From IMG/VR virus record IMGVR_UViG_3300032322_002283, positions 1-36,587 of that record: a DNA stretch of 36,587 bases. One strand, written 5' to 3'. This document shows positions 8,284 through 35,262 of this stretch, one piece after another. Positions within the stretch are counted from its first letter, which is position 1, and each line of letters starts with the position of its first letter. The translations under genes and the position numbers were made by a program. The notes under the pieces are model-generated. The model did not search any database and had not been told where the DNA came from. It was given only the letters and a program-made list of their open reading frames with translations. Source of the DNA: a virus.

Positions 8284-8858
8284 TTGACATGAAACTCGCC
8301 CAAATGCTCGGAGGCGACCCCGCAGACCGTAAAGAGGCGAGCTATTGGCCCGAACACCGCGACGCGCCCGAGGACATCTTCTTGGAGCGGCTGGCTGAGT
8401 TGGCACGGGCCAGCGGAGAACAAGTGCCGGCCTTGGTCGGCAAGATGGCCGCCCAGGCGTTTCTGGCTGCATCGAAGGAGACGGACAACGATTCCACCCG
8501 GCACGCCCAACGGGAGGCCATTGTGCAATTCCTGCAACAGGCAAGGGAGGCGTCGGCTTGCCCTGATCTTCAATACTTTGTTGCCTGCTGGATGGCGGCC
8601 TTTGAGATGGAGGATAGGGACGAGGACAGGACGCAGACCACAATCGCCAAGCAGTTCAATGTGACGCGGGCGGCCGTGAGCAAGCGGGTCATTGAGATCC
8701 GCAAAGCGGCCAACCCGGGCACCATTGCCCGAAGCCAGAAGAGCATCGCGGCCCGAAAGACTTACGCCCTGAGACAACTGATCGTCGGGGGCACACGAAC
8801 CAAGATCAACCTAACAACAACACAGAAGGAGACGGCAGACATATGGGCACAGAACTAA
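8280..8858 (+). CDS. HTH-containing phage protein
   Basis: A 192-aa protein, mostly helical. Residues about 122-150 (DRTQTTIAKQFNVTRAAVSKRVIEIRKA) form a clear sigma/AsnC-like helix-turn-helix, so it probably binds DNA; being just before the packaging genes it might control late transcription. Two starts are possible: ATG 8280 (ATGA overlap), or ATG 8304, which lies 14 nt after a TTGACA (8284-8289) exactly as in many late genes of this genome. The second start would give 184 aa beginning MLGGDPADRK. Confidence 0.6.
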   Translation: MIDMKLAQMLGGDPADRKEASYWPEHRDAPEDIFLERLAELARASGEQVPALVGKMAAQAFLAASKETDNDSTRHAQREAIVQFLQQAREASACPDLQYFVACWMAAFEMEDRDEDRTQTTIAKQFNVTRAAVSKRVIEIRKAANPGTIARSQKSIAARKTYALRQLIVGGTRTKINLTTTQKETADIWAQN

Positions 8859-9331
8859 CAACAGCAATCAGCGTGGAGCAGTTGCGCGCATTGGCCGAAC
8901 GCATCCGCGAGGCCAAGGTCAGTGCAATCAAGGAAATGAAGACGGCCATCGAGGCCATGCACGAGGAGGGAACGCTTTTGGTGCAGGCAGAGATGGAGTT
9001 GGGCGCGGCCTTTGATGGGTGGGTGGATGGGCTGGCTGATCATGGCGTGGACCCGATGCAAGCCAGGTATTGCATGAAGATCGCCAAGAAGCACAAGGAG
9101 GTGAAGAGCCTGTTCGCCGATGCAAGCGCAGCCAAGCAGTTGGTGCTTTTCAACTTTGCGCCACCCACGCCACCCAAGGCTGAAGCCGAGAGGGTGGCCG
9201 ATGTGCCGGCCTACACCATCACGGTGCGCTTCAACATCGACCCGATGGACGCGGCGTTTCCGCGCGCGCGGTTCTTGGCTGAACCGCAGGTGAAGAGCCT
9301 AGTGCAGGTGGTGCAGGAGCTTGAGGGGTGA
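8843..9331 (+). CDS. DUF3102-like phage protein
   Basis: A 162-aa protein. ISVEQLRALAERIREAKVSA, EEGTLLVQAEMELGAAFDGWVDG and PMQARYCMKIAKKHKEV follow the pattern of DUF3102-type proteins (helical, AAxxxGxxLxxAK...W). The C-terminus is beta-like (VPAYTITVRFNIDP) and of unknown function. ATG 8843 has one of the few plausible Shine-Dalgarno sites here (AAGGAG, 8827-8832) within an A/C-rich leader that overlaps the previous gene. Role not known. Confidence 0.5.
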   Translation: MGTELTTAISVEQLRALAERIREAKVSAIKEMKTAIEAMHEEGTLLVQAEMELGAAFDGWVDGLADHGVDPMQARYCMKIAKKHKEVKSLFADASAAKQLVLFNFAPPTPPKAEAERVADVPAYTITVRFNIDPMDAAFPRARFLAEPQVKSLVQVVQELEG

Positions 9332-9414
9332 AATAGCCCCGCCCCGTGGTCGGAAGTCTACTTGCAACCTACGACGCAAGTGCCCGATACAGATCGGTTT
9401 CTTCCTGCGAGCCT

Positions 9415-9435
9415 ACAACCCTTGACAAAGGTTGT
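9415..9435. promoter_or_regulatory. Inverted repeat ACAACC/GGTTGT around TTGACA before terS
   Basis: ACAACC (9415-9420) and GGTTGT (9430-9435) flank TTGACA (9422-9427). A second inverted repeat, CTTGC (9361-9365) / GCAAG (9376-9380), lies upstream. The gap 9332-9440 separates early from packaging genes, so an operator or late promoter here is reasonable, but no -10 is evident. Confidence 0.35.
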
Positions 9436-9440
9436 GGGTT

Positions 9441-10031
9441 GTGGGCAACGGGTTGTCACAGGGTCAAATCGCCAAGGCGTTAGGCATCAGCCAGCAGGCC
9501 GTCGCCAAGGCGGTCAAGCGCGGCATGCCTCTGACCAGCGTCGAAGACGCGATGGCTTGGCGCCGAGTTAACCAAAGCACCAAACGCACTAAGGCAAGCA
9601 GTGGGCCCACGCCTCGCCCTGAGCCGATCGGCCTGTCCGCCCTGCCGGAACTCTCCGACGACCTCGCCGTCACCGACAAGCTCCGCCGCATTGCAGTCAA
9701 AGATTTCGAGAACGCCGGCACGATCCAGGAACGCTCGGCCGCCAGCCGCACCGTGAAGGACGCCGAAGAGGCCCACGAGATCCGAAAGCGCGACCTGGTC
9801 CGCTCCGAGCAGGAAGCCCAAAACCTCATGCACCGCGACCAGGTGCAGACCGTCATTGCCGAAGAAGTCGGCAAGCTCCGCGCTCTCCTCGAGGCCATGC
9901 CCGGCGCCCTCGCTATGGCCGCCAACCCCCACGACCCCGAGCTTGCCCGCGACGCCGTGGCCGACTACCTCGAGCAGGTCTTCTCGACCTTGAGCAACAC
10001 CGGCCATGCGCTGCGAGTGGATTCCAGATAG
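9441..10031 (+). CDS. terS: Terminase small subunit
   Basis: A 196-aa protein. The N-terminal helix-turn-helix (LSQGQIAKALGISQQAVAKAVKRGMPLTSVEDAMAWRR) is the Nu1-type DNA-binding domain, followed by a Pro/Ser linker and a long helical oligomerisation part (EEAHEIRKRDLVRSEQEAQN). It recognises phage DNA and hands it to the large subunit encoded directly downstream (26-nt overlap). I prefer GTG 9441 because it lies 13 nt after TTGACA, as in other late genes; a TTG at 9432 is the alternative. Confidence 0.75.
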   Translation: MGNGLSQGQIAKALGISQQAVAKAVKRGMPLTSVEDAMAWRRVNQSTKRTKASSGPTPRPEPIGLSALPELSDDLAVTDKLRRIAVKDFENAGTIQERSAASRTVKDAEEAHEIRKRDLVRSEQEAQNLMHRDQVQTVIAEEVGKLRALLEAMPGALAMAANPHDPELARDAVADYLEQVFSTLSNTGHALRVDSR

Positions 10032-12311: not shown

Positions 12312-12493
12312 ACTGCCCACACTGCAATAAGACCCTGCCCGCGCACATCGTGGACACCCGCGCCACTGGCAGCAAGGGCGGCAAGGTCAAGTCGCCGCTC
12401 AAGGCCCGCACCCGCGAGCAGGCGCAAGCTGCGATCCGGGCGCGGTGGGCCAAGTATCGCGCCAAGCAAAAGCAGGCCAAGCAAACTTCTTAG
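12308..12493 (+). CDS. Small Cys-containing basic protein
   Basis: A 61-aa protein in an ATGA overlap with the zinc-ribbon gene. The N-terminal CPHCNK is a half zinc knuckle; the rest is strongly basic (GGKVKSPLKARTREQAQAAIRARWAKYRAKQKQ), fitting nucleic-acid binding. Its end overlaps by 4 nt the end of the antisense HNH gene. Function unknown. Confidence 0.55.
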   Translation: MNCPHCNKTLPAHIVDTRATGSKGGKVKSPLKARTREQAQAAIRARWAKYRAKQKQAKQTS

Positions 12494-13305
12494 CCGTGCA
12501 ATAACGGCAAATGAAGTTGCGGCTGTGTAATTTTGCCGTTTTTGCTTTTGTTGGCTATCGCCTCAAGCGGTTGCAGGTTTTGCCAGTTCATCGCCAAGGC
12601 AAGCTGCCTTCCGTCTGAGAGATCAAAAGCGCAAAGCGGAACAATGTGGTCAACGTGCCAATAGCTTCCGTAGTTGTCCCAATTCATGTGCCTATCAAAG
12701 AGCGACTCCAAATGCTTACGCAAAGCGTCTAAAGAACATCCGATAAGCGCCAGAGTTGGCGCCTGTTTGGATTTACCAGCAAGCAAAGAGCAAAGACGGG
12801 CGCGCAAGTGCGATGCCATGCGGAACATCGGGTCTGTTCTTCTTTTCACGCGAGTATAGTTGGCGCGCTTTTTTCTTTGCGCGGTCAGACGCTCAGAATC
12901 AGCAAAAACTTTATCTCTCCATTTTTTGCGCCAGCCAATCCGGCGAGCCATTAGCTGTGGATTCAGCTTGTCGCGCTTGTATCTTTTCTTTGAAAGTTCT
13001 CGCTTTCGCTCAATAAACGATGGGTCGTTTTCTTTGTTTTTGTGGTAGAAACGAGTTGCGGACTCAAGTTTGCGAGCAGGGTTTTTGGCGTAATTCTTTC
13101 TGTCCCTTGCGCGGATATGCTCTCCTATCCGTTGCTGCCTAAGAATGCACCTCTGGCGATCTTTCTCCAAAAAAGCAGCATACTTTTCAGAGTCTTGCTT
13201 AAGACGCGCAAGCCACTCACGCCTTGATTTTGCAGCCTTTGCGCGCCGAATGGCGTCCTTGTCTGCGACATCCGGTGACATTACAGTTGGGTCAGCTTCA
13301 TTCAT
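12490..13305 (-). CDS. HNH endonuclease (free-standing, homing-type), copy 1
   Basis: A 271-aa protein on the strand opposite to all surrounding late genes. The catalytic part near residues 205-255 reads SYWHVDHIVPLCAFDLSDGRQ then NWQNLQPLEAIANKSKN, an HNH/beta-beta-alpha-metal motif. The N-terminal two thirds are Arg/Lys-rich with repeated NK/W motifs that probably bind DNA. Two shorter relatives lie at 21006-21710 and 22598-23164. A consensus promoter at 13365-13392 drives it. Such genes are usually selfish elements that spread between phage genomes; this one is inserted between terL and the head genes. Confidence 0.85.
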   Translation of the reverse strand: MNEADPTVMSPDVADKDAIRRAKAAKSRREWLARLKQDSEKYAAFLEKDRQRCILRQQRIGEHIRARDRKNYAKNPARKLESATRFYHKNKENDPSFIERKRELSKKRYKRDKLNPQLMARRIGWRKKWRDKVFADSERLTAQRKKRANYTRVKRRTDPMFRMASHLRARLCSLLAGKSKQAPTLALIGCSLDALRKHLESLFDRHMNWDNYGSYWHVDHIVPLCAFDLSDGRQLALAMNWQNLQPLEAIANKSKNGKITQPQLHLPLLHG

Positions 13306-13364: not shown

Positions 13365-13392
13365 TTTATAGGCTTTCTACAGAGAATGTCAA
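13365..13392 (-). promoter_or_regulatory. Sigma70 promoter of HNH copy 1
   Basis: On the minus strand TTGACA (13392-13387), 16 nt, TATAAA (13370-13365): five of six -10 bases and all -35 bases match consensus. It leaves a leader of about 50 nt before ATG 13305. The -35 is one half of a perfect 7-bp inverted repeat, TGTCAAA/TTTGACA (13387-13393 and 13402-13408), so it may be controlled. Confidence 0.65.
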
Positions 13393-13423
13393 ACGCGCTC
13401 CTTTGACACAATCAAGCGGAATA

Positions 13424-13744: not shown

Positions 13745-15228
13745 AACTTGCCGACCGCTGGAAACTCGTGACCCGCGCCTTCAGCCCGAAGGCCCAGAGC
13801 TACGACGCCGCGCGCCCCTCCATCCAGCGCCGCTTCCCCTACAACGCCACCGCCGTCGACAGCCACATCGACGTCTCCGGCGCCGACCGCGAGCGCCTGA
13901 TGAAACTCTCCCGCTGGGTCTACAACAACATGCCCTTCGTCCGCGGCCTCATCAGCGAGAAAGCCCGCTACGCCACCGGCACCGGCATCCGCCCGCAAGC
14001 CCGATCTGGCGACGAAGCGTGGGACAACGCCGCCGAAACCTTCTTCGACCAATGGTCCCGCGTCGCCGACATTCAAGGCCGCTACACCTGGCGCGAAATG
14101 CAGCGCATCGCCTCGGTCGCCATCGACCGGGACGGCGAAGTTTTCTTTCGCGCCACCGCGCAGAGCACCGGCTACCCTGCGCTGCAACTCATCCTCGCCC
14201 ACCGAATCGGCGACGCCCGCTCCTCGATCTACGAGCCGAGCAACCCGCAGGCCCGCGAAGGCGGCCAGAACATCATCGATGGCGTCGTAGTCAACGACCA
14301 ACTCCGCCCGATCTTCTACCGCCACCTGATCGGCGACGGCATGGACGCCGCCCAACGCTTCGAGGACATCCCCGCGCAGCAACTCATCCACGTCGGCGAG
14401 GCATCGCAAGGCGACGAGCTCCGCTACGTCACCCCGCTCGCCCCGTCCATCAACCACCTCCGCGACGTCTCCGACGCCGTCAGCTTCGAGAAGATGGCGC
14501 TGAAGATTTCCTCCTACATCGCCCTCGCCATCAAGTCCTCGAACCCCCAGGGCGCCGACTTCTTTGGCGAGTCCACCGCCAGCGTCAACACCCAGGACAA
14601 CAGCGAAGTCACCGTCGAAAGCCTCGGCAACGCCGGCGGCGCCATCCCCCGCCTCGGCCTCGGCGAAGACTTGATCTCCTGGACCTCGAACCGCCCGTCA
14701 CAAAACTTCCGCGAGTTCTGTGACGTCCTTCTGCGCGAAGTCTGCCTCAACATCGGCGTCCCCTGGGAATTCGCCGCCCGTCCGGCCGACGCCGGTGGCG
14801 CCGCCCTCCGCGCCGTTCTCGTCCGCGCCCAGCGCACCTTCGAGCAACGCCAAGCCCTTCTCATCGACCGCCTCTGCTCCCGCGTCTGGGCGCACACGAT
14901 TACGCTGGCAATGCAGCGCGGCCTCCTGCCGCAAAACGAAAACTGGTGGCGCGTCGAGTGGCAACGCCCGGCCGCCGCCTCCGTCGATTACGGCCGCGAA
15001 GCCGCCGCCAACTTGAACGACGTCCGCGCCGGCCTCCGCACCTACAGCGAAGACTACAGCGAGCGCGGCCTTGAGTGGAAAGACCAACTCCGCCAGCGCG
15101 CCGTCGAGGCCAAGTATCTCGCCGACCTCTCCGCCGAGTTTGGCATCAGCGCCGACAGCATCGCCACGTTCAATCCCAACCCCGCGCCGGTCACACCCGC
15201 CGCATTGACACCGCCGCAAGCGCAATGA
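13741..15228 (+). CDS. Portal protein, lambda gpB family
   Basis: A 495-aa protein. N-terminal features of the lambda-type portal: NNMPFVRGLISEKARYATGTGIRPQ (residues 60-84), DRDGEVFFRA near 135, and then DIPAQQLIHVGEASQGDELRYVTPLAPSINHLRDV, the typical crown/stem transition. GVPWEFAARPADAGGAALRAVLVRAQRTFEQRQ matches the family C-terminal helix. Forms the dodecameric vertex through which DNA is pumped. The last codons contain the TTGACA that precedes the protease start. Confidence 0.9.
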   Translation: MKLADRWKLVTRAFSPKAQSYDAARPSIQRRFPYNATAVDSHIDVSGADRERLMKLSRWVYNNMPFVRGLISEKARYATGTGIRPQARSGDEAWDNAAETFFDQWSRVADIQGRYTWREMQRIASVAIDRDGEVFFRATAQSTGYPALQLILAHRIGDARSSIYEPSNPQAREGGQNIIDGVVVNDQLRPIFYRHLIGDGMDAAQRFEDIPAQQLIHVGEASQGDELRYVTPLAPSINHLRDVSDAVSFEKMALKISSYIALAIKSSNPQGADFFGESTASVNTQDNSEVTVESLGNAGGAIPRLGLGEDLISWTSNRPSQNFREFCDVLLREVCLNIGVPWEFAARPADAGGAALRAVLVRAQRTFEQRQALLIDRLCSRVWAHTITLAMQRGLLPQNENWWRVEWQRPAAASVDYGREAAANLNDVRAGLRTYSEDYSERGLEWKDQLRQRAVEAKYLADLSAEFGISADSIATFNPNPAPVTPAALTPPQAQ

Positions 15229-16316
15229 ACCCGACGTGGTATGCAATTTCAGCGCCCCGCAACAGCGAAGCCGAAGACAGCGGCATCGAAATCTCTATTT
15301 ATGACGAGATCGGCTTCGGAGGCGTTACGGCAAAGAATTTTGTCGCGGATCTTCGCAAGCTCAAAGACCAGCACATCCACCTCCGCATCAACAGCGTCGG
15401 AGGTTCCGTCATCGAAGGCGCCGCCATCTACAACGCCCTCCGCCGGCACAAAGGCGGCCTGACCGTCCACGTCGACGGCCTCGCCGCCTCCATGGCCTCC
15501 GTCATCGCCATGGCCGGGGAGGAAGTCCTCATGGCCGGCAACTCCATGCTCATGATCCACAACCCCTGGTCCATGGCCATGGGCGACGCCGACGACCTCC
15601 GCAAAGAGGCCGACGTCCTCGACAAACTCAAAGCCACCCTCGTCAACGCCTACGTCCGCAAGACCGGCCGCGAGCGCGGCGAGATCGAAGCCATGATGGA
15701 CGAGGAAACTTGGCTCGATGCCACCGAAGCCCTCGGCATGAATTTCATCGACGGCATCGAAGACGACCTCGAGGCCGCCGCCTCCATCACCCCCGAGCAG
15801 GCCCGCGCCCGCTTTGACAACTTCTCCAACTCTATGCGTAAACCCGCGAAATCCCGCAAGGCCGAGGAAGCCGCTCCCGAAGTCGTGGAGCCCGCCGTCG
15901 ACACGCCCGTCACCGACGAGGCAGTTGACATCTCCGAGGAAGTTATGAACGCCGAACTCCAGGCCAAAGTTGACGCCCTCCAGGCCGACCTTGCCGCCAA
16001 AGTCGAAGCCGAAGCCGCCCAGGCGCAAGCCGCCGAGGACACGGCCAAAGAACTCGAAACCCTCAAAGGCGAGATCGCCCGCCTCTCCGCCGAAGTCGCC
16101 ACCCGCGACGAGGAGATCACCGCCCTGCGCGCCGACTCCAAGACCGCCGGCGAGCAAGCCGCCGCCATCGTCGCCGCCGTCGGCCTCGAGCCCGTGGCCA
16201 TCGTCAGCCCGGAGCCGGAACTGACCGCCGCGCAAATCTTCAACAACCTTTCTGGCGCCGAAGCCGTCGAATACTACCGCACCCACAAGCGGGAGATCAT
16301 GGCCTCCGTCTACTAA
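15225..16316 (+). CDS. ClpP/S49-type capsid maturation protease with fused scaffold
   Basis: A 363-aa protein. Residues 20-180 are a ClpP-like serine protease: NSVGGSVIEG (56-65), DGLAASMAS with nucleophile S89, MIHNPWS with H112, and acidic DATEALG near 165. From about residue 240 comes a long coiled coil (AELQAKVDALQADLAAKVEA, EIARLSAEVATRDEEITAL), the scaffolding part, as in lambda gpC/Nu3. ATG 15225 overlaps the portal stop and lies 14 nt after TTGACA. Two in-frame internal ATGs (15834 and 15945) have the same motif, predicting separate scaffold products. Confidence 0.88.
   Translation: MNPTWYAISAPRNSEAEDSGIEISIYDEIGFGGVTAKNFVADLRKLKDQHIHLRINSVGGSVIEGAAIYNALRRHKGGLTVHVDGLAASMASVIAMAGEEVLMAGNSMLMIHNPWSMAMGDADDLRKEADVLDKLKATLVNAYVRKTGRERGEIEAMMDEETWLDATEALGMNFIDGIEDDLEAAASITPEQARARFDNFSNSMRKPAKSRKAEEAAPEVVEPAVDTPVTDEAVDISEEVMNAELQAKVDALQADLAAKVEAEAAQAQAAEDTAKELETLKGEIARLSAEVATRDEEITALRADSKTAGEQAAAIVAAVGLEPVAIVSPEPELTAAQIFNNLSGAEAVEYYRTHKREIMASVY
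15945..16316 (+). CDS. Predicted nested scaffolding protein (Nu3-like)
   Basis: An in-frame internal start in the protease gene: ATG 15945 (Met241) lies 14 nt after TTGACA (15925-15930) and also has a GAGGA purine stretch at 15935-15939. The 123-aa product is purely the coiled-coil scaffold. A longer version could start at ATG 15834 (Met204), again 14 nt after TTGACA (15814-15819), giving 160 aa. Phage lambda makes Nu3 from an internal start of gene C in the same way; here the evidence is the motif and position. Confidence 0.55.
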   Translation: MNAELQAKVDALQADLAAKVEAEAAQAQAAEDTAKELETLKGEIARLSAEVATRDEEITALRADSKTAGEQAAAIVAAVGLEPVAIVSPEPELTAAQIFNNLSGAEAVEYYRTHKREIMASVY

Positions 16317-17283: not shown

Positions 17284-17312
17284 CGTTTGTTGACAAACCA
17301 TCTCCGCGCGAG

Positions 17313-19121
17313 ATGGAGAAACAAAGCCCGCGCGAGCAGATCGCGCTTTGCGTCATCGTGGGGAACGAGCCGAAGCGGCTCGACAAATGCCTCACCCTCT
17401 TCGCCCCCGCCGTCAGCGAAATGGTCGTTGTCCACGCAACCGGCGCCGAGGCCAAGAGCATCAAAATTGCCGAGGTGTGCCAGAAGCACGGCGCGACCTA
17501 CGATGTCTATGCCAACGCCCCCGGCAACGAATGGCCTCACGTCGACGACTTCGGCGGCGCCCGCCAGCGGTCCTTCGACCTCGCCAGCAAGCCTTGGGCG
17601 CTGTGGGTAGACGCCGACGATACGCCGGGACCAAACTTCGCATCCGCCCTCCACGAGTTGCTCGAGAAGCACGGCGAGAACTTCGACGCCTTCGCCCTCT
17701 ACCACAACGTCGCCGGCCGCGGCATCGCCCACAACATCCGCGAGCGCCTTGTCCGCCGGGACAAAGGCAAATGGGTCAACCGCATCCACGAGAACTTCCA
17801 ACTCGCCCCCGACGCCCGCATCGCCAAGTGCGACGAGCCGATCGTGGTGCACTTGCCCGACGATGAGCCCAAGCAGGGCAGCAATCGCAACCTCACCATC
17901 CTCGAAAGCATCCCCGAGGCCGAGCGCACCGTCAGCGAACTCTATCACCTGCATGGCGAATACATGGGCGCCGGCCGCAAGAACGACGCCATGGCCTTGG
18001 CAAAGCAAGCCCTCGCGCACCCCGACCTCAAGCCCACCGAACGCTACGAGCTTTGCCTCAACATCTGCGAACTGGCCCGCCCGCCCATCCTTGAGACCGG
18101 CACCCCCGAGCACACCGCCATGCTCACCGCGCTCCACAGCGCCTACCGCACCCAGCCCAACCGCCGCGAAGCCTTGGCCCTCCTCGGCGCCATGCACCTC
18201 GACCTCGGCGACTTGGAAAGGGCCGAAGCCTATTTGCGCTGCATGATGGCCCTCCCGCGCCCCGCGGAAAAACCCTGGACCCACCGCGACGGCCTCTACG
18301 GGTGGGCAGGGGAAACCCTCTGGACGCAATTTCTCCGCATGATCGGCGACCTCGACAAAGCCGACGGCATCGAGCGCGCCCGGCTCCAGGCGCAAAAGGA
18401 ACCCACCATCAGCATCATCCATCCGACCCGCGGCCGCCCCGAGCAAGCCGCCGTGGTGCGGAAGATGTTTTTGGACAACGCCAAAAACCCCGAACGCATC
18501 GAGCACATCTTCGGCCTGGAAGCCGACAGCCCCGACTTCCCCATCCTCGGCCGCTTCCGCCACGCCACCTCGCCCGCGGGGAATCTCGCACAAACCAACT
18601 GCGTTGCCGCCGCCAACGCCGCGGCCCGCGCCTCCACCGGCGACATCCTCATCTACGCCCAGGACGATCTGGCCCCACCACCGCTGCATTGGGACGAAGC
18701 CATCGTGCAAGCCCTGGGCGGCGACGTCCGGCGCCCCGCCATGGTCTCCATCGGCGACGGCGTGCGCGACGACGAATTGCTTTGCACGCCCTGCCTCACC
18801 CGTCCCGCGGTCGAGGCCCTCGGCTATGACGGCGGCCTGTATTTCGACGGCTACCGCTCCATGTTTGCCGACACCGAACTGACCTGGCGTGCCGTGAAAA
18901 ACAAATGGCTGGTGTCCTCCGGTCTGGTCATCCGCCACTTGCACCCCACCGCCGGCGGCCCCGACCACGAAACCACGGCGCGCAGTAACTCGGTGGAAAA
19001 CTACCGCCAAGGCTTCGACCTCTTTTGCCGCCGCAACCCCGACTACCTCGAGGCCAACCCCAGCTTTGTCCCCGACACCGAGGCCATGTTCGCCGCCGCC
19101 GCGCATGATAAAAAACGCTGA
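17313..19121 (+). CDS. Two-domain glycosyltransferase with central TPR-like part
   Basis: A 602-aa protein. Residues 8-180 look like a GT2 family GT-A domain: ALCVIVGNEPKRLDKCL, then WALWVDADDTPG with the metal-binding DADD at 100-103. The middle (about 200-350) is helical, with TPR-like pairs (ALALLGAMHLDLGDLERAEAYL). From about 365 a second GT-A domain begins (ISIIHPTRGRPEQAAVV, GDILIYAQDDLAPPPLHWDEA). It lies between capsid and neck genes, so it may glycosylate a virion protein or alter host surface glycans. ATG 17313 is 17 nt after TTGACA. Confidence 0.8.
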   Translation: MEKQSPREQIALCVIVGNEPKRLDKCLTLFAPAVSEMVVVHATGAEAKSIKIAEVCQKHGATYDVYANAPGNEWPHVDDFGGARQRSFDLASKPWALWVDADDTPGPNFASALHELLEKHGENFDAFALYHNVAGRGIAHNIRERLVRRDKGKWVNRIHENFQLAPDARIAKCDEPIVVHLPDDEPKQGSNRNLTILESIPEAERTVSELYHLHGEYMGAGRKNDAMALAKQALAHPDLKPTERYELCLNICELARPPILETGTPEHTAMLTALHSAYRTQPNRREALALLGAMHLDLGDLERAEAYLRCMMALPRPAEKPWTHRDGLYGWAGETLWTQFLRMIGDLDKADGIERARLQAQKEPTISIIHPTRGRPEQAAVVRKMFLDNAKNPERIEHIFGLEADSPDFPILGRFRHATSPAGNLAQTNCVAAANAAARASTGDILIYAQDDLAPPPLHWDEAIVQALGGDVRRPAMVSIGDGVRDDELLCTPCLTRPAVEALGYDGGLYFDGYRSMFADTELTWRAVKNKWLVSSGLVIRHLHPTAGGPDHETTARSNSVENYRQGFDLFCRRNPDYLEANPSFVPDTEAMFAAAAHDKKR

Positions 19122-20031
19122 TATTCTCTATATCGGCGAGGAACCAGCCTCGGTCGCCGCCCACGCTTTCGCCCAACTCCAGCGCGCCGGCTTGGCCGTC
19201 AATCTGATCGACTTCCCGCAGCAACCCGACGACGTCCTGCGCTTGCTGCAAGACTCGCCGGCCGACGCCATCGCGCTCTATTCGCCCTTCCAGCTTCGCA
19301 ACTTCATCGGCACCCACGGCGAAACCCTCCGCACCCTCGGCAAGCCGGTCATTTCCATCGTGCCCGAATACACCTGGGGCAACAGCTTCCCCGGCTACCG
19401 CGACTTCGAGGAGTACGACGACTACGCCGATTTCTACATCTGCTGCCAAAGCAGCGACACCGAACAGATGCGCCGCCTCGGCCGCCACGCCGAGACCATG
19501 CCCTGCTGGGTCGCCACCGACACCTTCCGTCCCGGGCCCCCGCTGGCCGAGCGCATCCAGCGATTTTGTTTTGTCGGCCACGTCAACGACTACTGGCCCG
19601 GCATTTACAGCGAGCGCCGCCGCCTGCTCGGCGCCCTGCAAGCCCGCGGCCTCATCGACATCTTGAACATCCCGCGCCACGCCAGCACCGCCTCGCTCGT
19701 TGCCGACGCCTACGCCAAATACGCCGGCGTGTTCTGCCCGCCCGCCAACGGCAAAGGCCACAGCATCCGCGCCTACGAAGCCACGGCTTGCGGCGCCCTC
19801 ATCGTTGAGGTGCAGCCGCTCGACCCCGACGGCGAGCACTTCAAAGACCGCTTGCACCGCTTGGCCCTACCCGAAGGCATCTCCGGCGACGACCTCTGCA
19901 CCTGGGTCGAGGATCTTCGTTTTCCCGATTGGCAGGAAGTCGCCACCCGCGGCCGCGACTTTTGCCGCGCCCGGCTTAACCCCTGCGAAGTCTGGCGCTC
20001 CATCTTCGCCGCCGCTGACAAGGCGCTCTAA
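19105..20031 (+). CDS. GT-B/CgeB-like glycosyltransferase
   Basis: A 308-aa protein overlapping the end of the large glycosyltransferase by 17 nt. N-terminal ADILYIGEEPASVAAHAFAQL is Rossmann-like. RFCFVGHVNDYWPGIYSERRR and GKGHSIRAYEATACGALIVEVQ match the donor-binding C-terminal half of CgeB/GT4-type enzymes, where the E of YEA contacts the nucleotide sugar. Likely works with its neighbour on the same glycan. Sugar and acceptor unknown. Confidence 0.75.
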   Translation: MIKNADILYIGEEPASVAAHAFAQLQRAGLAVNLIDFPQQPDDVLRLLQDSPADAIALYSPFQLRNFIGTHGETLRTLGKPVISIVPEYTWGNSFPGYRDFEEYDDYADFYICCQSSDTEQMRRLGRHAETMPCWVATDTFRPGPPLAERIQRFCFVGHVNDYWPGIYSERRRLLGALQARGLIDILNIPRHASTASLVADAYAKYAGVFCPPANGKGHSIRAYEATACGALIVEVQPLDPDGEHFKDRLHRLALPEGISGDDLCTWVEDLRFPDWQEVATRGRDFCRARLNPCEVWRSIFAAADKAL

Positions 20032-21005: not shown

Positions 21006-21710
21006 CTACTTGCCCGCAAACCTGTCTCGCTTTCGGCTATTTTCAGCAGCCCACATGGGCTGCATGTTTTTAAGACCGAAGGCTTTTTTCTGCTGATCCG
21101 GATCAGACAGATCAAACCACGCCAACGGGAATACGTGGTCAACATGCCACCCGCTTCCGTAATTGTTCCAAGTCATGCCCGGTTCAAATTGGCTCTCCAA
21201 GTGGCGACGAAGCTGCTCTACCGTGCATCCCAAAAACTCAAAAGTCTTCTTAATCTTTCGGATGCCCATCAGCGCCGCATAAATGCGGCACCGCATGGCT
21301 TTTTTCAGCCTATATTCGGGGCTGGTTGCCCGCATTTTTTGGTCATGCCTTTTAAGCGTGGCCCGCACTTTGCCTCTGTTTTCACGGACCCATCTAACTT
21401 GGTTTTGCCTAACCCGACCGCGGTTTTGCTCTTGCCATTTTTGCGCGTTTTCTTTGTGGCGATCTGGGTTTTGAAGCCTCCAAGCCCGATTTGTTAAGCG
21501 CCTCCGCTCTTTGTTTTTTTCGGCCCAGCGGCTGTTTGCCCAAAGTTTGTTGTCCCATGCTTTCTGCGTAAGCCACAGCTCGTCCCAGACATACGAGCCG
21601 TCTTTCTTTTCGCGAAGCAGATACGAGTAAAACAGGCGGCCATCAGCCCGCTTTGTGCCGCGCTTGATTTCCGGAACAGGTTTAGGCACGTTGGCCTTAG
21701 TCTTTCGCAT
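21006..21710 (-). CDS. HNH endonuclease (homing-type), copy 2
   Basis: A 234-aa protein antisense to the tail genes. Conserved core: FLGCTVEQLRRHLESQFEPGM, GSGWHVDHVFPLAWFDLSD and GLKNMQPMWAAENSRKR, an HNH nuclease with an upstream helical domain shared with copies 1 and 3. The N-terminal part is rich in Trp, Asn and Arg (WAEKNKERRRLTNRAWRLQN). Lower GC than the neighbouring late genes. It ends 6 nt from the end of the gene at 20749-21000. Confidence 0.87.
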   Translation of the reverse strand: MRKTKANVPKPVPEIKRGTKRADGRLFYSYLLREKKDGSYVWDELWLTQKAWDNKLWANSRWAEKNKERRRLTNRAWRLQNPDRHKENAQKWQEQNRGRVRQNQVRWVRENRGKVRATLKRHDQKMRATSPEYRLKKAMRCRIYAALMGIRKIKKTFEFLGCTVEQLRRHLESQFEPGMTWNNYGSGWHVDHVFPLAWFDLSDPDQQKKAFGLKNMQPMWAAENSRKRDRFAGK

Positions 21711-21773: not shown

Positions 21774-21823
21774 ACCAGAACAGAGGAAGCCGGTCAAACG
21801 GGTTGACAACGCGCCCATAACAA

Positions 21824-22207: not shown

Positions 22208-22609
22208 ATGCAAGCCAGTTACTACGCTACCACCGACACCAAGGTCGCCTCGTGCCTGTGCACCGTCGGCGTCACCCTCCGGCAGCAAGACCCCATCAGC
22301 CGGGTTATCCAAAAGGGCAAGGAGACCACCCACTTCTGGTTCTCCTGCGACGGCGCCGGCGGAATCCCGACCGGCAGCATCGTCGAAGCCATTGTCACCA
22401 GCCAAGAGGCGTGCGAGGAATTGCGCGACCAGCTACCGGATCTGCCAGGAGCTCGGGCGGCTCTCTACAACAGGGAAATCCTGCTGGACGTCATTTTTAA
22501 GAAAACCAGACCCTTGGTCATGGTTAATCTGCCGCAAGGCGGCGTCATGCTTGCCGACAAGCAGTTGGACGCAAAGACGAAACGCGACTTGGCTCAGTTA
22601 ATTTATTAA
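22208..22609 (+). CDS. Hypothetical tail-region protein
   Basis: A 133-aa protein. VASCLCTVGVTLRQQDPISRVIQKG and HFWFSCDGAGGIPTGSIVEAI point to a mixed alpha/beta fold with several Cys; the C-terminus (LPQGGVMLADKQLDAKTKRDLAQLIY) is helical. No family recognised. Its last 12 nt overlap the end of antisense HNH copy 3. Confidence 0.55.
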   Translation: MQASYYATTDTKVASCLCTVGVTLRQQDPISRVIQKGKETTHFWFSCDGAGGIPTGSIVEAIVTSQEACEELRDQLPDLPGARAALYNREILLDVIFKKTRPLVMVNLPQGGVMLADKQLDAKTKRDLAQLIY

Positions 22610-23164
22610 CGCGGCCCGCCAGGCTATTTTTGCGTTTTTTCGGAGATTGTCCTGTTTTGTAAGCGGCTGAAGGTTTGAGTAATGGAAGGCCCATCTCTGC
22701 TGGTTTTCATCGTCTAAATCGAACCAAGCTAGCGGGATTATGTGGTCAGCGTGCCAATAGGTTCCAAAGTTTTCCCAAGTCATGCCTGGCTCAAATTGAG
22801 CTTCTAAATGCTCCTTAAGTTGGCACGTCGTGCATCCGACAAGCCGCACCGAGTTGAGTTCCTTGCGGCCACGAAGCAAGCCCGCAAGCCGGCTTCTGGT
22901 AGTTTTGATTAGGCGAAAAACAGGATCGGACGCTCGCCTGCAAGCCTCGTATTTCTTGGTGTAACTTTTTAAGTGCGCCTTATTGGCAACTCGCCACTTT
23001 TGCCCCGTTGCCATTGTTTTCGCGTAACTCTGTGGGCTGACCCAAATTTCGCGGCGTTTTACTGTTCCAGATTTTAGACTCTCCCTGCGATAGCCCCAAA
23101 AAATAAAGCCGTCCTTGCGCCTATCACCCCTCTTACGCCTCTCGTCTTTGCTTAAATCTGTCAC
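22598..23164 (-). CDS. HNH endonuclease (homing-type), copy 3
   Basis: A 188-aa antisense protein. It shares with copy 2 a LVGCTTCQLKEHLEAQFEPGM helical block, TYWHADHIIPLAWFDLDDENQQ (HNH core) and YSNLQPLTKQDNLRKN. The N-terminus has its own Arg/Lys-rich segment. It starts at GTG 23164; a TTGACG (23198-23193) - 16 nt - TACACT (23176-23171) promoter places transcription start on that GTG, implying a leaderless mRNA. Confidence 0.87.
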   Translation of the reverse strand: MTDLSKDERRKRGDRRKDGFIFWGYRRESLKSGTVKRREIWVSPQSYAKTMATGQKWRVANKAHLKSYTKKYEACRRASDPVFRLIKTTRSRLAGLLRGRKELNSVRLVGCTTCQLKEHLEAQFEPGMTWENFGTYWHADHIIPLAWFDLDDENQQRWAFHYSNLQPLTKQDNLRKNAKIAWRAALIN

Positions 23165-23198: not shown

Positions 23199-23242
23199 AC
23201 GCGGGCGCCCGCAAGTTCTTTTGACAGCGCCCCGCGGGCGAT

Positions 23243-23641: not shown

Positions 23642-23862
23642 AGGCCCGACCGGCTTGGCAGCTTTGCCTGGCCGCGCGGGTCGCAAAATACGGCATCTCC
23701 ATCGACCAGGCGATATGGCACTTGCCTTTGGCGGCGCTCAACCAGCTTCTGCTCTGGGACGACATCGCCTCCGGCCGCGTGCCGCGCTGGGCCGATAGCG
23801 GAGAAACCGGAGCCGCCAGCATTGACACCCTGCTCGCCGACGCGCTGACAGGCGGCGTATAG
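23243..23862 (+). CDS. Frameshifted tail assembly chaperone, GT-like (-1 PRF)
   Basis: Predicted 206-aa fusion. Ribosomes read the G-like frame to the slippery heptamer C CCA AAA (23629-23635), slip back one base and continue to TAG at 23860-23862. The -1 frame encodes a plausible domain: WQLCLAARVAKYGISIDQAIWH, then LAALNQLLLWDDIASGRVPRW and TGAASIDTLLADALTG, with no start codon of its own. Lambda-like phages use this to make gpGT, which recruits tail tube and tape measure. The site is the textbook X XXY YYZ form. Confidence 0.7.
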
Positions 23863-23863: not shown

Positions 23864-24616
23864 GTGCAGGTCAAGGTCACGCCAGACGAAAAAGCCGCCC
23901 GCCGGTTCCACTCGGCCATGCTCGAGCTACGTCGCATCAGCGGCAAGGACTTCGAGACCGTGATGAAAGCCGAGCTCGGGGCGATGCTGGCCAGCGCCGT
24001 CCGCTCAACCAAGAAGGCCACGGTCAAAAGCATCCAAGGCTCGCACGAGAAGCGCCCGGGCTCGCAATACACCTTCAACTACGCCGGCCCCGAAAGCCGC
24101 AGCGGCAAAACCTATTCGGCCGCCGATGTCGCGCGCGCGCAGACCCGCGCCGCCCAGCGCAGATCCAAAGGCAAGAACGGCAAGCTGGTCTACTACTTCA
24201 GCCGCAGCAACGAGCCCAAAGCCTACCCGTCCTGGCTGTGGCGCCAGATCCAAGAGCAACGGGCCAAGTCCCTGCAAAACAAACTCAAGGCCCGAGGGCT
24301 GGCTGCCTCGATGTTCGTCAAGATCGGCGAGGGGCTGGGCATCCCGGTCAAGGCGCCGGCCTATCTTCGCACCGCCGCGCACCACCGAAAGGGAGAGATG
24401 CGCCAACTTCTCGAGCTCACCAGCAAAGGTAGCGGCAACAAATACGAGGTCGGATTCGTTAACAATCTCGGCTACCTCAACCGCTGGGCGCAGGCCGGCA
24501 CGGCCTTTCGCAAGGCGCTCAATGCCCGCGCCAATTTTTTTGGCCAAGCGGTCAAGCTCGCCGCCCAGGGCAAGATCAAGAAGACGCTCGATCGTTATCC
24601 CGGTCTGGCGTCTTGA
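23864..24616 (+). CDS. Tail protein of unknown function, basic
   Basis: A 250-aa, strongly basic protein between the chaperone and tape measure genes. It has EKAARRFHSAMLELRRISGKDFETVM at the N-terminus, YSAADVARAQTRAAQRRSKGKNG in the middle and a helical C-terminus. GTG 23864 is 13 nt after CTGACA (23845-23850), a variant of the start motif, and 1 nt after the fused chaperone's stop. Probably a minor tail or tape-measure-associated protein. Confidence 0.6.
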   Translation: MQVKVTPDEKAARRFHSAMLELRRISGKDFETVMKAELGAMLASAVRSTKKATVKSIQGSHEKRPGSQYTFNYAGPESRSGKTYSAADVARAQTRAAQRRSKGKNGKLVYYFSRSNEPKAYPSWLWRQIQEQRAKSLQNKLKARGLAASMFVKIGEGLGIPVKAPAYLRTAAHHRKGEMRQLLELTSKGSGNKYEVGFVNNLGYLNRWAQAGTAFRKALNARANFFGQAVKLAAQGKIKKTLDRYPGLAS

Positions 24617-24634
24617 CACTTGGGCGCAAGGCAA

Positions 24635-28679: not shown

Positions 28680-28705
28680 CCCTTTGACACCTTGCATGGG
28701 CAAGG

Positions 28706-29659
28706 ATGCAGGCCCGCAAACTTTACCTCGACACCGGCAGTCGCACATTCGTCGCCGAGCCCACCAGCACGCTGCCCGCCGCCGGGCTGACCGTCTTCCG
28801 CGAGGACGTTGAGGACATCGAACTTTACTTCTTGGAGCCGACCGGCGATTTCTCCGCGCCTTACCGCTACCTCAATTACTCGACGCTGACCGCGAATTTC
28901 GCCCTAGGCACCACCACCCCGGCCACGACCGTGACCTCGTTCACGGCCCTCACGACGACCGTCACGATCACCGCCTCGGTTGCCATCACCGGCGGCTCCG
29001 GCGTGACAGAAATCCAGCGCATCCACATGTCGCCCGCTCCGGCGACCGGCTACTACTCGCTCTCCCTCCCGACGCGCAACATCACCGTGAGCAGCATCAC
29101 GGCCAGCGTGTTTTCCGCCGCCTACCACGCCCTGCTCGACGGCCAAAGCGTCACCCTCACCGGATTCAGTTCGCCCTCCGGCTTCAGCAACGGCAGCGTC
29201 TACTTCGTCCGCGACCGCAGCCGCGACGGCTTCAAGATCGCCACGGCCGCAGGCGGCACCGCCATCACTGCCTCAGCCTCCTCCGGCGGCACCGCTGTCC
29301 TTCCCGCTTACATCACCGCGCCGCTCCCCGCAGGCACCGGACCTGCCGAGATCGCCGCCGCCTTGGCCAGTGCTGCCGGATCGGCCACCCAAGAGATTGC
29401 CGTCATCGGCACGGCGGACGACTACCGCTTGACCTACGGCGGCGCGTATGCCGGGGCGGACATGCCCACCGTGGCCATCACGGCCTCGACCATCCTCGGC
29501 GCTCCCGGCCTGCTCGGCACGCTGAACCTCAACACCGCCGCGATTACCGCCCTCGTCGCATCAGGCACGACCGACGTGTTGATGGAAGTCGAGCTCAGCA
29601 ACGCGACCAAACGCCAGACCTTCCAATCCACCGCCACCCTTTCCGCCGACATCATTTAA
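28706..29659 (+). CDS. Tail-associated structural protein
   Basis: A 317-aa protein very rich in Thr, Ala and Ser, with repeated beta-strand segments (TTTVTITASVAITGGSGVTEIQ, NITVSSITASVFSAAYHALLDGQSVTLTGFS). It looks like a tail-fibre-associated or decoration protein. ATG 28706 is 16 nt after TTGACA (28684-28689); the stop overlaps the next ATG (TAATG). Confidence 0.6.
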   Translation: MQARKLYLDTGSRTFVAEPTSTLPAAGLTVFREDVEDIELYFLEPTGDFSAPYRYLNYSTLTANFALGTTTPATTVTSFTALTTTVTITASVAITGGSGVTEIQRIHMSPAPATGYYSLSLPTRNITVSSITASVFSAAYHALLDGQSVTLTGFSSPSGFSNGSVYFVRDRSRDGFKIATAAGGTAITASASSGGTAVLPAYITAPLPAGTGPAEIAAALASAAGSATQEIAVIGTADDYRLTYGGAYAGADMPTVAITASTILGAPGLLGTLNLNTAAITALVASGTTDVLMEVELSNATKRQTFQSTATLSADII

Positions 29660-31880: not shown

Positions 31881-31884
31881 TCTT

Positions 31885-32353: not shown

Positions 32354-32419
32354 AGAAAACCTTTACAACCGACCCGCCAAGTATTGTTAAGCGATACTCT
32401 TTGACACCCGCCCGAGGGC

Positions 32420-32990: not shown

Positions 32991-32997
32991 CCGCAGC

Positions 32998-33603
32998 GTG
33001 AATAAAATACTTACATGGTTGAAGCAATCATTCGTGGCCTTTCTGGCTGGCCTCCAGCAGATCGGCGAGCAGTCGCCCTTGCCCTCGTCCGGAAACTTTC
33101 CCTCACCGACCTCGCCGACATTGCCTCCGCTGCCCACGACCGCATCCACGCCGAAGCGGAAAAAAGGAAAGCAGTTCACGGGCGCAAAGGGCGACTTCCA
33201 AAAGCTCCTCGATGAGGCAGGCGTGCGGTATTTCACGGCCGACGAAGTGTTCTTCCGCGGCGCACGCGATGCCCGGCTGCAACTCAACAGCGATCCACCA
33301 CGCTCGCTCTGGCCATCGCTGCTTGCCGTGACCAAAGTCGCCGACGAGGCGCGGCACCGGATCGGCCGTCCGCTGCGGATCAACAGCGCCTACCGCAACG
33401 CGGCCTACAACCGGGCCATCGGCGGAGCCTCGGCCAGCATCCATATGCGCGGCGGCGCGCTCGATCTCTCGGGCTCACCGGCCACCTTGCACAAGATCCT
33501 CACGCAAATGCGGCGAGAGGGGCTATTCCGTGGCGGCATCGGCAAGTATCGCACGTTCGTCCACGTCGATGTGCGCGGTAAGAGCGCGGATTGGCAGGGC
33601 TAA
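32998..33603 (+). CDS. Endolysin, peptidase M15 family
   Basis: A 201-aa protein. The N-terminus (MNKILTWLKQSFVAFLAGLQ) is a hydrophobic anchor or SAR-type signal, followed by a Pro/Ser/Thr linker to residue 50. The catalytic domain shows INSAYRN (128-134), the HxxxxxxD zinc motif with H149 and D156 (SIHMRGGALDL) and HVD with H189 and D191 (FVHVDVRG), as in M15A murein peptidases. It cleaves peptide cross-links of peptidoglycan. GTG 32998 is 7 nt after the upstream stop. A second frame (33015-33215) overlaps its 5' end. Confidence 0.85.
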   Translation: MNKILTWLKQSFVAFLAGLQQIGEQSPLPSSGNFPSPTSPTLPPLPTTASTPKRKKGKQFTGAKGDFQKLLDEAGVRYFTADEVFFRGARDARLQLNSDPPRSLWPSLLAVTKVADEARHRIGRPLRINSAYRNAAYNRAIGGASASIHMRGGALDLSGSPATLHKILTQMRREGLFRGGIGKYRTFVHVDVRGKSADWQG

Positions 33604-33606
33604 TTT

Positions 33607-33683
33607 GGCGGGGTGCCGCACCGAGCACCGTATGGTGTATCCAAGGCGGCCGGGTGCGGGTTCAATGCCCGGCCCCGCCCCCA
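33607..33683 (+). ncRNA. tRNA-like element with encoded CCA end
   Basis: GGCGGGG (33607-33613) pairs perfectly with CCCCGCC (33673-33679), followed by C and CCA (33681-33683). A T-arm-like hairpin (33656-33672) has loop TTCAATG. In between there is no good D- or anticodon-arm: GCCGC (33615-33619) pairs with GCGGC (33646-33650) around a small CACC/GGTG hairpin. The bases ATCCAAG (33639-33645) could be a degenerate Trp anticodon loop. It lies 3 nt after the endolysin stop. Could be a decayed tRNA or a tRNA mimic. Confidence 0.4.
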
Positions 33684-33747
33684 ACTTGCAAGCAATCCTT
33701 GTGAGTTGAACTTGTCGATCCCATCGACACGTTCGCGGGACGTGTGC

Positions 33748-33770
33748 AAAAACCTGTCATTTTTCGACAG
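33748..33770 (-). terminator. Possible terminator of the minus-strand accessory operon
   Basis: On the minus strand CTGTC (33770-33766), a 7-nt loop and GACAG (33758-33754) are followed by G and TTTTT (33752-33748), about 25 nt past the end of the GNAT gene. The 5-bp stem is weak. A second inverted repeat ACACGT/ACGTGT lies alongside at about 33727-33745. Confidence 0.45.
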
Positions 33771-33793
33771 ATTAGCAGGCCGCTAATGCAGGT

Positions 33794-34225
33794 CTACTTT
33801 ACACCCGCCAGCGACTTCCGTAAATATACCGACGCCGCCCCGCCCCATTTGTTCTCGGGCCGATAGAAGCGGTAGCCGCAGGCTACGAGCGAATTGATCG
33901 ACGGGCAGTTCCAGTGGGCCACATAGGTGACGATCTCGCTCAACCCCAACGCCCGCGCCTCGGCCTCCCGCGCGCGGATCAGCCGCCGCTGCAAACCTCG
34001 GCCTCGATGCGCGCGCACTACGCCCGCCCGCGAGAGAAACCCGAGCCCGGCATTCTGCGCGTTCTCGCACACCCGCAGACCCGCGTAGCCGACCGGCTCT
34101 TTGCCGCGCCACACGACCCACCAGAGCGAGTTTTCCAGCACTGGGCGGTGGTCGCTGGGAAAGCACTCGGCGTCCAGCGGGAGGACCGCCAGCGGCGTGT
34201 CTTCGCGCTGGATGCGGTAGGTCAT
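33794..34225 (-). CDS. GNAT-family N-acetyltransferase
   Basis: A 143-aa protein. The acetyl-CoA binding motif A is SRAGVVRAHRGRGLQRRLIRA (about residues 71-91; V...RGRG). EPVGYAGLRVCENAQNAGLG precedes it, and WNCPSINSLVACGYRFYRP matches motif B with the Asn/Tyr of GNAT enzymes. It transfers an acetyl group to an unknown acceptor (protein, sugar or small amine). Last gene of a three-gene minus-strand operon; its ATG overlaps the stop of the upstream gene (ATGA). Confidence 0.85.
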   Translation of the reverse strand: MTYRIQREDTPLAVLPLDAECFPSDHRPVLENSLWWVVWRGKEPVGYAGLRVCENAQNAGLGFLSRAGVVRAHRGRGLQRRLIRAREAEARALGLSEIVTYVAHWNCPSINSLVACGYRFYRPENKWGGAASVYLRKSLAGVK

Positions 34226-34491
34226 TTGAGTCGGTAGTGCGGCGTGGGCCGCACGATTTGGTCGAGCTTGATGATAAAATCTTTGCGCTCAATTTGCCCT
34301 GCGCGGAACAGCCGCTTAACGCGCTCGCCGGTCGTGCACTCGGAGCGGCCCCATTTAGTCGCCAGTTGGCGCACCGTGAACCATCCGGGGGGCACGACCT
34401 CGGGCACGACGCTGCTTTGGGAGAGCACGGCGCACCATGCGGCAAGGTCGGTGTCGGGTGTCACATTCTTTGCTGACTTTTTGTGACTCAT
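34222..34491 (-). CDS. HTH/winged-helix DNA-binding protein
   Basis: An 89-aa protein from ATG 34491 in an ATGA overlap with the phosphoesterase gene. GWFTVRQLATKWGRSECTTGERVKRLFRAGQIERKDFIIK is a winged-helix with recognition helix CTTGERVKRLFRAG. Likely a regulator, perhaps of its own operon through the palindromes at 35263-35298, but no direct evidence links them. Confidence 0.6.
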   Translation of the reverse strand: MSHKKSAKNVTPDTDLAAWCAVLSQSSVVPEVVPPGWFTVRQLATKWGRSECTTGERVKRLFRAGQIERKDFIIKLDQIVRPTPHYRLK

Positions 34492-35222
34492 AGGGGCAGG
34501 CGGTAATGAGGCGAAAGGGTCTCTAGGCGAATGACGGCCAAGTTGTCGGTGTATTCGCCCCAGCAAAGGCCGTGTGCCCAGCCCAGCGTCTGCCGGCGGG
34601 TCTGGGCATAGCCGACATCGAGCTTGATGCCGCAGCCTACGTTGTAGCCGATGACCGGCCGCTGAGTGCGGCCCTGTTCCTGGGCAACGCGGTGCGTGTG
34701 GCCAAAAACGCAGGACATCCCGAGCGCCTCGGCATGATCGCGGGCCGCGCTGACGTTATACATCACGCCGTGGAGGAATAGGGCGTCACCAAGCTGCACG
34801 CAGGCCGAGGGACGGAGGCCGTCGTAGGGAATCAACTTGGCCTTCATTTCTTTGGCCGCGTCGGAGATCCGCGCCAGGACATTGCCCGCCGCGTAGCTGA
34901 CCACGGCGTTGCCGCTGTGGGCGAGACTCACAAGTCTGTGCTCATGGTTTCCCATGAGGACGTGGGTCGGTTCCAGCTCGCGCAGGAAGGACAGCCCGGC
35001 GAGGAGGTCGTCGGCCATCGACTCGGCGCGGTCAGGATCGTCGGGCTTGGCCGAGGAACGCAGTGCGGCCATGTCGGTGAAGTCGCCCAGGTGAATTACC
35101 GTGTCGGGTTTCCACTTCTCCCGCATCTTGAGCATGGCGCCGAGCGCCTTGGGGTCGGCCATGTGGCCATGGGTGCAGGAGAGGGCCAAGAACCGTCGCC
35201 ATTTTCGGGAGATCGTCGCCAC
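34488..35222 (-). CDS. Calcineurin-like metallophosphoesterase
   Basis: A 244-aa protein with the metallophosphoesterase motifs in order: SCTHGH (15-20), GDFTD (46-50), GNHEHR (91-96), LHG (150-152) and GHTH (174-177). The first motif normally reads DxH; here a Cys (C16) stands in place of the Asp, so metal binding at one site may be altered. GTG 35222 lies 16 nt after a minus-strand TTGACA (35244-35239), the same start motif as late + strand genes. Substrate unknown; could be DNA, RNA or small phosphodiesters. Confidence 0.8.
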   Translation of the reverse strand: MATISRKWRRFLALSCTHGHMADPKALGAMLKMREKWKPDTVIHLGDFTDMAALRSSAKPDDPDRAESMADDLLAGLSFLRELEPTHVLMGNHEHRLVSLAHSGNAVVSYAAGNVLARISDAAKEMKAKLIPYDGLRPSACVQLGDALFLHGVMYNVSAARDHAEALGMSCVFGHTHRVAQEQGRTQRPVIGYNVGCGIKLDVGYAQTRRQTLGWAHGLCWGEYTDNLAVIRLETLSPHYRLPL

Positions 35223-35262
35223 GCAAACGCGCGGCGGGTGTCAAGGCGTGGCGCTATGACGC

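Follow-up and report, generated by a model that had tools for sequence, protein, structure and literature searches.

A TTGACA hexamer upstream of start codons with nearly constant spacing: a candidate translation-initiation element of temperate lambda-type phages that probably infect Verrucomicrobiota

Results

The virus record IMGVR_UViG_3300032322_002283 (IMG/VR) was analysed over its whole length of 36,587 nucleotides (nt), referred to here as the window; it has a G+C content of 62% and, being classed as linear, is possibly a fragment. A gpA-type terminase, a lambda-family portal, a head maturation protease, a major head protein, a tape measure, an endolysin and an integrase are all encoded in the window, and based on this set of structural and lysis genes together with the integrase we regard the virus as a temperate lambda-type siphophage. 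Ahead of start codons, mostly of late genes, the hexamer TTGACA recurs in one orientation, and an earlier note on this DNA had proposed it as a start signal that is not a promoter.

Thirteen exact copies of TTGACA lie on the plus strand of the window and 12 of these are followed by ATG or GTG at a distance of 13-17 nt, the copy at 23822 being the exception (Table 1). All positions listed in the earlier note were recovered, including those of two CTGACA variants and of one minus-strand copy with a similarly placed GTG; in total, the minus strand has four copies, at 35244, 13392, 2948 and 332. The note's estimate that fewer than one such placement would occur by chance was too low, as 1.44 of the 13 copies are expected to have any ATG or GTG at 13-17 nt; the probability of finding 12 of 13 is still 4e-11. 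With starts called independently of the motif, from codon usage by a simple custom caller that misplaced some of them (e.g. six orthologs of 21824), nine of the 13 plus-strand copies precede a called start by 13-17 nt versus 0.087 expected (P = 1.9e-17), and TTGACA is the top hexamer at this distance from starts in the window (nine occurrences; runner-up four). Thus, nine of the 12 starts listed in the note match called starts, and the other three (8304, 15834 and 15945) are in-frame codons within longer genes at which the motif is conserved.

The enrichment is also present in related phages, the opposite of what the note had named as a refuting outcome. Across 116 loci obtained by portal and terminase searches, some of them overlapping pieces of a single contig, the late-gene strand has 689 copies of TTGACA and the opposite strand 25, and an ATG follows at 14, 16 and 17 nt in 219, 196 and 129 cases, respectively, versus 0-45 cases at distances outside 13-17 nt. 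Of the 295 distinct TTGACA-N12-18-ATG sites, all but one lead into a reading frame of at least 50 codons. Among 163 deduplicated copies in the family, spacers of 12, 13, 14, 15, 16, 17 and 18 nt lead to an ATG opening at least 50 codons in 2, 13, 35, 11, 39, 10 and 1 cases, and among 339 copies in diverse contigs and prophages the corresponding numbers are 0, 17, 22, 19, 25, 4 and 1; other distances up to 39 nt give at most 5 (family) and 10 (diverse contigs and prophages) cases. The motif precedes 105 of 679 called family genes, nearly always from the same gene families, and the spacer sequences are highly variable around a constant hexamer. CTGACA is a conserved variant of TTGACA, and either of the two is found at 13-16 nt in five of eight distinct sequences upstream of the terminase small subunit gene. 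In the 21824 family, TTGACA is present in 13 of 13 upstream sequences, and the six orthologs not counted at called starts in Table 1 have another ATG at 16 nt. Inside the end of the portal gene, at 15205, the motif is read as TTG ACA in the portal frame, TTG making up only 12% of portal Leu codons, and the TGA within the hexamer at 24613..24618 doubles as the stop codon of gene 23864-24616.

Table 1. Hexamers ahead of start codons and associated features in the window
Feature	Position	Strand	Distance to start (nt)	Start codon and gene	Conservation or match
Gene before the late block	8280..8858	+			C-terminal helix-turn-helix similar to sigma region 4; possible late regulator
TTGACA	8284..8289	+	14	In-frame ATG 8304, 24 nt inside gene 8280-8858; candidate second or alternative start	
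TTGACA	9422..9427	+	13	GTG 9441, terminase small subunit (9441-10031)	
TTGACA	13403..13408	+	15	ATG 13424	13/13 orthologs; 60 distinct sites
TTGACA, in end of portal gene	15205..15210	+	14	ATG 15225, head maturation protease	12/13 orthologs
TTGACA, in protease gene	15814..15819	+	14	ATG 15834, in frame; possible start of a nested scaffold	
TTGACA, in protease gene	15925..15930	+	14	ATG 15945, in frame; possible second start of a nested product	
TTGACA	17290..17295	+	17	ATG 17313, glycosyltransferase	11/13 orthologs
CTGACA	20015..20020	+	14	ATG 20035	13/13 distinct upstream sequences
TTGACA	21803..21808	+	15	ATG 21824	7/13 orthologs at called starts
TTGACA	23221..23226	+	16	ATG 23243	12/13 orthologs
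CTGACA	23845..23850	+	13	GTG 23864	10/11 distinct upstream sequences
TTGACA	24613..24618	+	16	ATG 24635, tape measure	12/13 orthologs
TTGACA	28684..28689	+	16	ATG 28706	12/13 orthologs
TTGACA	32401..32406	+	13	ATG 32420	11/11 orthologs
TTGACA	35239..35244	-	16	GTG 35222, metallophosphoesterase (34488-35222)	6/10 orthologs at called starts; 10 distinct sites
Probable attP, 3' half of tRNA-Ser(CGA), adjoining the integrase gene	35368..35425	+			
Tyrosine-type integrase	35538..36548	+			phrog_1, E 2e-29; PF00589

At the three in-frame sites the hexamer can be compared with the protein sequence that it encodes. Of 49 distinct segments at 15814, 44 retain the reading TTT-GAC-A even though T, K, N and I all occur as the third residue, and at 15925 GTT-GAC-A is found in all 44 pattern-matched segments (five of the 49 segments not being matched by the search pattern), with T, I or N as the third residue. 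The Val codon at the latter site is GTT in 44 of 44 cases, the share of GTT among Val codons of the family being 27%. The hexamer at 8284, which lies directly behind the stop codon of the upstream gene, is present together with the in-frame ATG in 20 of 20 distinct segments at a spacing of 14 nt (16 segments) or 17 nt (four segments); here, the Ile codon is ATT in 20 of 20 cases versus a 25% share, and the next residue is M, T or I. Because the hexamer persists while the encoded residue varies, selection acts on the nucleotides at all three sites, with the segments compared being related and, therefore, not independent events. The outer start of gene 8280 has Shine-Dalgarno (SD)-like words in 14 of the 20 segments and the inner start at 8304 has the motif instead; gene 8280 may have two starts.

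The claim that the hexamer is not a -35 promoter element is borne out by two observations. A TAnnnT sequence is found 15-18 nt after TTGACA in one of 121 diverse sites and in none of 101 deduplicated family sites, i.e. no more often than at control distances, and site logos give no sign of a purine preference at the would-be transcription start positions. By these sequence measures, the motif is not a sigma70 promoter. Two of the minus-strand copies in the window are promoter-like, the one at 13392 having TATAAA at 16 nt and the one at 332 having TACGTT at 17 nt. Similarly, the logos contain no CCUCC-complementary stretch in the region 5-9 nt ahead of the start, so that the motif does not qualify as an SD site, and in agreement with the statement that most of the genes lack such a site, SD-like words precede only 14 of 268 late genes.

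The presence of the motif depends on the distance to the upstream gene. It precedes 76 of 134 late genes with a gap of at least 9 nt versus 12 of 132 late genes with a gap of at most 8 nt, all 12 belonging to the 15225 (protease) family, suggesting that late genes unable to rely on translational coupling tend to carry the motif. Early genes have the motif in none of 125 cases and SD-like words in 50 of 125 at called starts; these late and early counts omit genes with a caller score of at most 12, genes that open a piece and families not represented in the window, and they exclude CTGACA and the inner start of gene 8280. The major head protein gene, which is listed among the exceptions to motif use, lies closely behind its neighbour in most relatives. 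In most orthologs of the late gene at 22208, a different common string precedes the start; it is hairpin-like and is followed by approximately AGAGATnnAGATT and then by ATG.

The host link is provided by the attP-like segment, which gives an otherwise unassigned phage a candidate host: all 58 bases are identical to part of a complete tRNA-Ser(CGA) gene (identified by ARAGORN) in the Verrucomicrobiota genome G185. Among 387 genomes taken from the UBA1412 phylum, this 58-mer has a full match in one and a match with three mismatches in a second. Based on this identity, we infer that the host is probably a member of the Verrucomicrobiota. In 400 kb of G185 the motif precedes none of 302 genes, and SD-like words precede 27 of 302 genes versus 21 of 302 in a control stretch, i.e. 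they are hardly commoner than in the control. The early genes of the phage (781-8858) often have SD words although the host-like G185 hardly uses them. Whole-genome counts of the motif at 13-17 nt and at 25-29 nt are similar in eight host-like or terminase-bearing genomes (e.g. 10 vs 11 in G185, 52 vs 38 in G479 and 34 vs 46 in G406). In the two genomes in which clustering was compared, hits concentrate on the phage contig, which has 10 hits at 13-17 nt vs one at 25-29 nt in G479 (contig C27; 10 of 52 genome hits) and seven vs one in G417 (contig C9; 7 of 48 genome hits).

Three further ideas about the host were rejected. A host-wide signal in Verrucomicrobiota was abandoned because 25 genomes, selected visually from 288 for their high counts or ratios, have matching counts at 13-17 nt and at 25-29 nt. 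TTGACA seemed depleted in the coding sequence of G185 (nine copies vs 64 in synonymous shuffles), yet 13 are expected from shorter words. Finally, a TGTCAA in the 16S rRNA of G526 is located approximately 440 nt into the molecule, outside the 3' tail, and is regarded as a chance complementarity.

Beyond the family, the pattern TTGACACCC-N3-7-GGGCATG retrieved at least 119 stretches from IMG/VR versus 23 with the hexamer permuted, 60 with ATC in place of ATG and 45 with a longer gap. Among the at least 119 loci listed, the 83 that have a homolog of a window protein contain 171 other TTGACA copies, of which 111 precede starts; in the 36 that lack such a homolog, this is the case for 15 of 181. 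Genomes of the host order contain terminase-bearing contigs, called prophages here and some of them short, with terminases 27-40% identical to that of the window, and at least one motif start is found in 14 of 15 prophage stretches fetched, most clearly in G526, G417, G479, G423 and G475. In these divergent phages the motif precedes mostly other genes, i.e. it turns over between genes. Of the 126 diverse motif starts, which include some background sites, 80 belong to genes that have no homolog among the called genes of the family. A terminase-based scan of genome contigs gave seven distant relatives (22-35% identical). In distant terminase loci elsewhere (L117 and L119-L123) five of 53 TTGACA copies are near a start and form no pattern, and in the Verrucomicrobia contig L118 none of five is near a start.

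The product of gene 8280 weakly matches the phrog_351 sigma factor family with E-values of 3e-4 to 5e-4 in three of three family members scanned and Pfam Sigma70_r4 with E-values of 0.009-0.025 in four of four, which is below the curated cut-off; its predicted structure is poor (predicted local distance difference test score, pLDDT, 52). Minus-strand open reading frames (ORFs) at 12490-13305, 21006-21710 and 22598-23164 occupy large gaps of the late block and are possibly inserted genes; one adjoins the promoter-like copy at 13392, one has a weak ROS/MUCR match and one a weak HNH match. The glycosyltransferase gene (17313-19121), whose product matches two families, lies inside the head gene block and is found in relatives too. 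The metallophosphoesterase and an 89-amino-acid protein (34222-35222, minus strand) recur jointly in many motif-bearing contigs, an association to which selection by the pattern search contributes in part.

Discussion

A directional repeat at a near-fixed distance ahead of start codons, which is conserved gene by gene and rare in the host as identified from attP, is a start-associated sequence. The signal is therefore of a known kind and its TTGACA form differs in sequence, distance, gene class and host. The Start-Associated Sequences (SAS) of Cluster K mycobacteriophages, as described in PMC3203893, are 13 bp long, contain AGGAG and are located 3-7 bp before the starts of non-structural genes. 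Both signals are short directional repeats at the translation starts of a subset of genes, are conserved gene by gene and are rare in the host. Unlike the Cluster K SAS, the TTGACA signal has 6 bp, no complementarity to the anti-SD sequence is seen in it, it lies at 13-17 nt before mostly structural genes, spans more divergent phages, has in-frame internal starts and belongs to another host; its site logos lack the length, the AGGAG core and the 3-7 bp spacing that define the SAS. We found no earlier report of a TTGACA start signal in the open-licence literature, and none joining Verrucomicrobia, prophage and TTGACA. With SD sites the motif has in common that it is a short upstream signal with a spacing tolerance of 4-5 nt, whereas its sequence is different and its position approximately 8 nt further upstream, and the 16S rRNA tail of G526 has the usual CCTCC. 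In PMC10783764, Akkermansia and another Verrucomicrobia strain are listed as SD-scarce with a conserved CCUCC.

Combining the spacing, conservation and gene-usage data, we suggest, with a probability of roughly 0.55, that YUGACA (mostly UUGACA) ending 13-17 nt before AUG or GUG functions as a translation-initiation element in a large group of temperate lambda-type siphophages, the hosts of which would probably be SD-poor Verrucomicrobiota. The element would mark mainly late genes without the option of coupling, in addition to in-frame starts in two longer genes, and would be read on the mRNA just upstream of the initiating ribosome. The upstream edge of the initiating ribosome is at approximately -15 and, because the 13-17 nt spacer puts the hexamer just beyond this edge, a protein bound at the hexamer could recruit or position the 30S subunit. 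Given that neither the genes of G185 nor the early phage genes as called use the motif, this reader is probably a putative phage-encoded or phage-modified factor; the inner start of gene 8280, which has the motif, qualifies the early-gene part of this argument. The spacing tolerance of 4-5 nt, which ends sharply on its lower side, is reminiscent of ribosome positioning; together with the inner starts and the pattern of missing coupling it leads us to favour translation, and the sigma-region-4-like phage protein keeps a role on DNA alive.

Lambda-type phages make the scaffold from a nested start within the protease gene, as in the C/Nu3 nesting of lambda. The protease C and the scaffold Nu3 of lambda are named in PMC3224144. 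By analogy, we read 15834 and 15945 as candidate internal starts for a predicted scaffold protein: as in lambda, the protease gene with its in-frame internal starts is located between the portal and the major head protein, and unlike in lambda the candidate starts are marked by the motif. A tentative extension, which we consider possible rather than probable, is a dedicated, sequence-specific and SD-independent system: ahead of the late phase the phage would produce a factor that attaches to UUGACA on late mRNAs and places the 30S subunit of the host on the start codon. In a host phylum with little use of SD sites, translation would thereby shift to the virion genes, including the internally started scaffold and the second start of gene 8280.

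Several observations weigh against a role in translation. There is no sign of selection for an unpaired hexamer in the RNA (0.510 vs 0.509 at 195 sites), and no ribosomal protein or initiation factor was identified among the proteins scanned, not all of which were searched in both libraries. Some late genes have neither the motif nor obvious coupling (22208 family), and two motif genes do not belong to the late block, 35222 being encoded on the other strand and 8280/8304 lying before the block; because of the metallophosphoesterase gene, the signal cannot be described as confined to the late block. TTGACA is the sigma70 -35 consensus, and the gene for the sigma-region-4-like protein directly precedes the late block. 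Because of this protein, the identity with the -35 consensus and the lack of support from accessibility, we hold the translation-initiation reading at the probability given above and grant a role on DNA a modest chance.

For this role on DNA, a sigma-region-4- or Q-like factor, possibly the product of gene 8280, would accompany elongating RNA polymerase and let it recognise TTGACA in the manner of a -35 element; the polymerase would then pause or be modified at the moment of start codon synthesis, which would couple transcription to translation or prevent termination. The idea draws on the identity of the hexamer to the -35 consensus and on the position of 8280-8858 directly before the late block together with its helix-turn-helix, for which the best, albeit weak, match is a sigma-factor family. 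The recognition-helix residues of the 8280 product, however, presumably differ from those of sigma70, the model of this protein is poor, the minus-strand and internal sites would need the same factor, and the idea does not by itself account for a distance to the start codon that stays within a 4-5 nt window. A precedent is lambda Q, which according to PMC7171158 loads at a sigma-dependent pause and has a helix-turn-helix resembling region 4 of sigma70. Unlike a sigma70 -35 element, the phage motif lacks a -10 and is positioned relative to the start codon. The absence of a -10 would fit single-box late promoters, at which a phage specificity factor for the polymerase reads TTGACA alone and transcription begins a few nt before each gene with very short leaders; T4 late promoters are a precedent for a single box, and the restriction to one strand, mostly to late genes and mostly to genes with a gap in front is in agreement with this idea. 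We consider such promoters unlikely, as a lone hexamer carries little information in a host genome, the sites overlap upstream coding sequence and even lie inside the protease gene, promoters are seldom kept within a 5-nt window from the start codon and the would-be transcription starts have no purine preference.

Alternatively, the hexamer could be part of a boxA/nut-like RNA site for NusB-S10 with a spacer hairpin as the boxB analogue. A boxA-like TTCTTTGACA, ending in the hexamer, lies approximately 550 nt after the end of the G526 16S rRNA gene (presumably in the 16S-23S spacer), T is somewhat favoured directly before the hexamer (0.45 at 121 diverse sites) and the spacers fold slightly better than shuffles (-1.51 vs -1.02 kcal/mol; p 0.006; 222 sites). 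Yet the remainder of boxA is not conserved (at most 0.17 bits at positions -6 to -2), column pairs with z of 3-4.5 are isolated and do not stack into a helix, and an antitermination site needs no fixed distance to a start and is here located after the untranslated gap rather than before it, making this a quite improbable explanation. A hairpin between hexamer and start was also considered as a feature in its own right, being striking by eye at 28706, 32420 and in several prophages, and was set aside, the excess stability being weak and the covariation unconvincing. The L5 stoperator contains the complement of the TTGACA hexamer, and repressor binding sites of this type, scattered near gene starts, would likewise be oriented uniformly with respect to transcription; the narrowly fixed start-codon distance, the limitation to just six conserved bases and the sites at internal starts render them more improbable still. 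Chance or coding bias, for which it could be argued that four hexamers (8284, 15205, 15814 and 15925) lie within reading frames, is practically eliminated by P = 2e-17 in the window and refuted by the relatives, in which a reading frame of at least 50 codons begins at 294 of 295 distinct sites and the in-frame sites keep the hexamer while the residue varies.

A conserved non-SD start signal in phages of SD-poor bacteria gives a handle on how such hosts choose their starts. The motif would improve gene calling in many contigs of uncultured phages and predicts nested starts in them. Moreover, it might serve as a portable orthogonal element for recruiting ribosomes.

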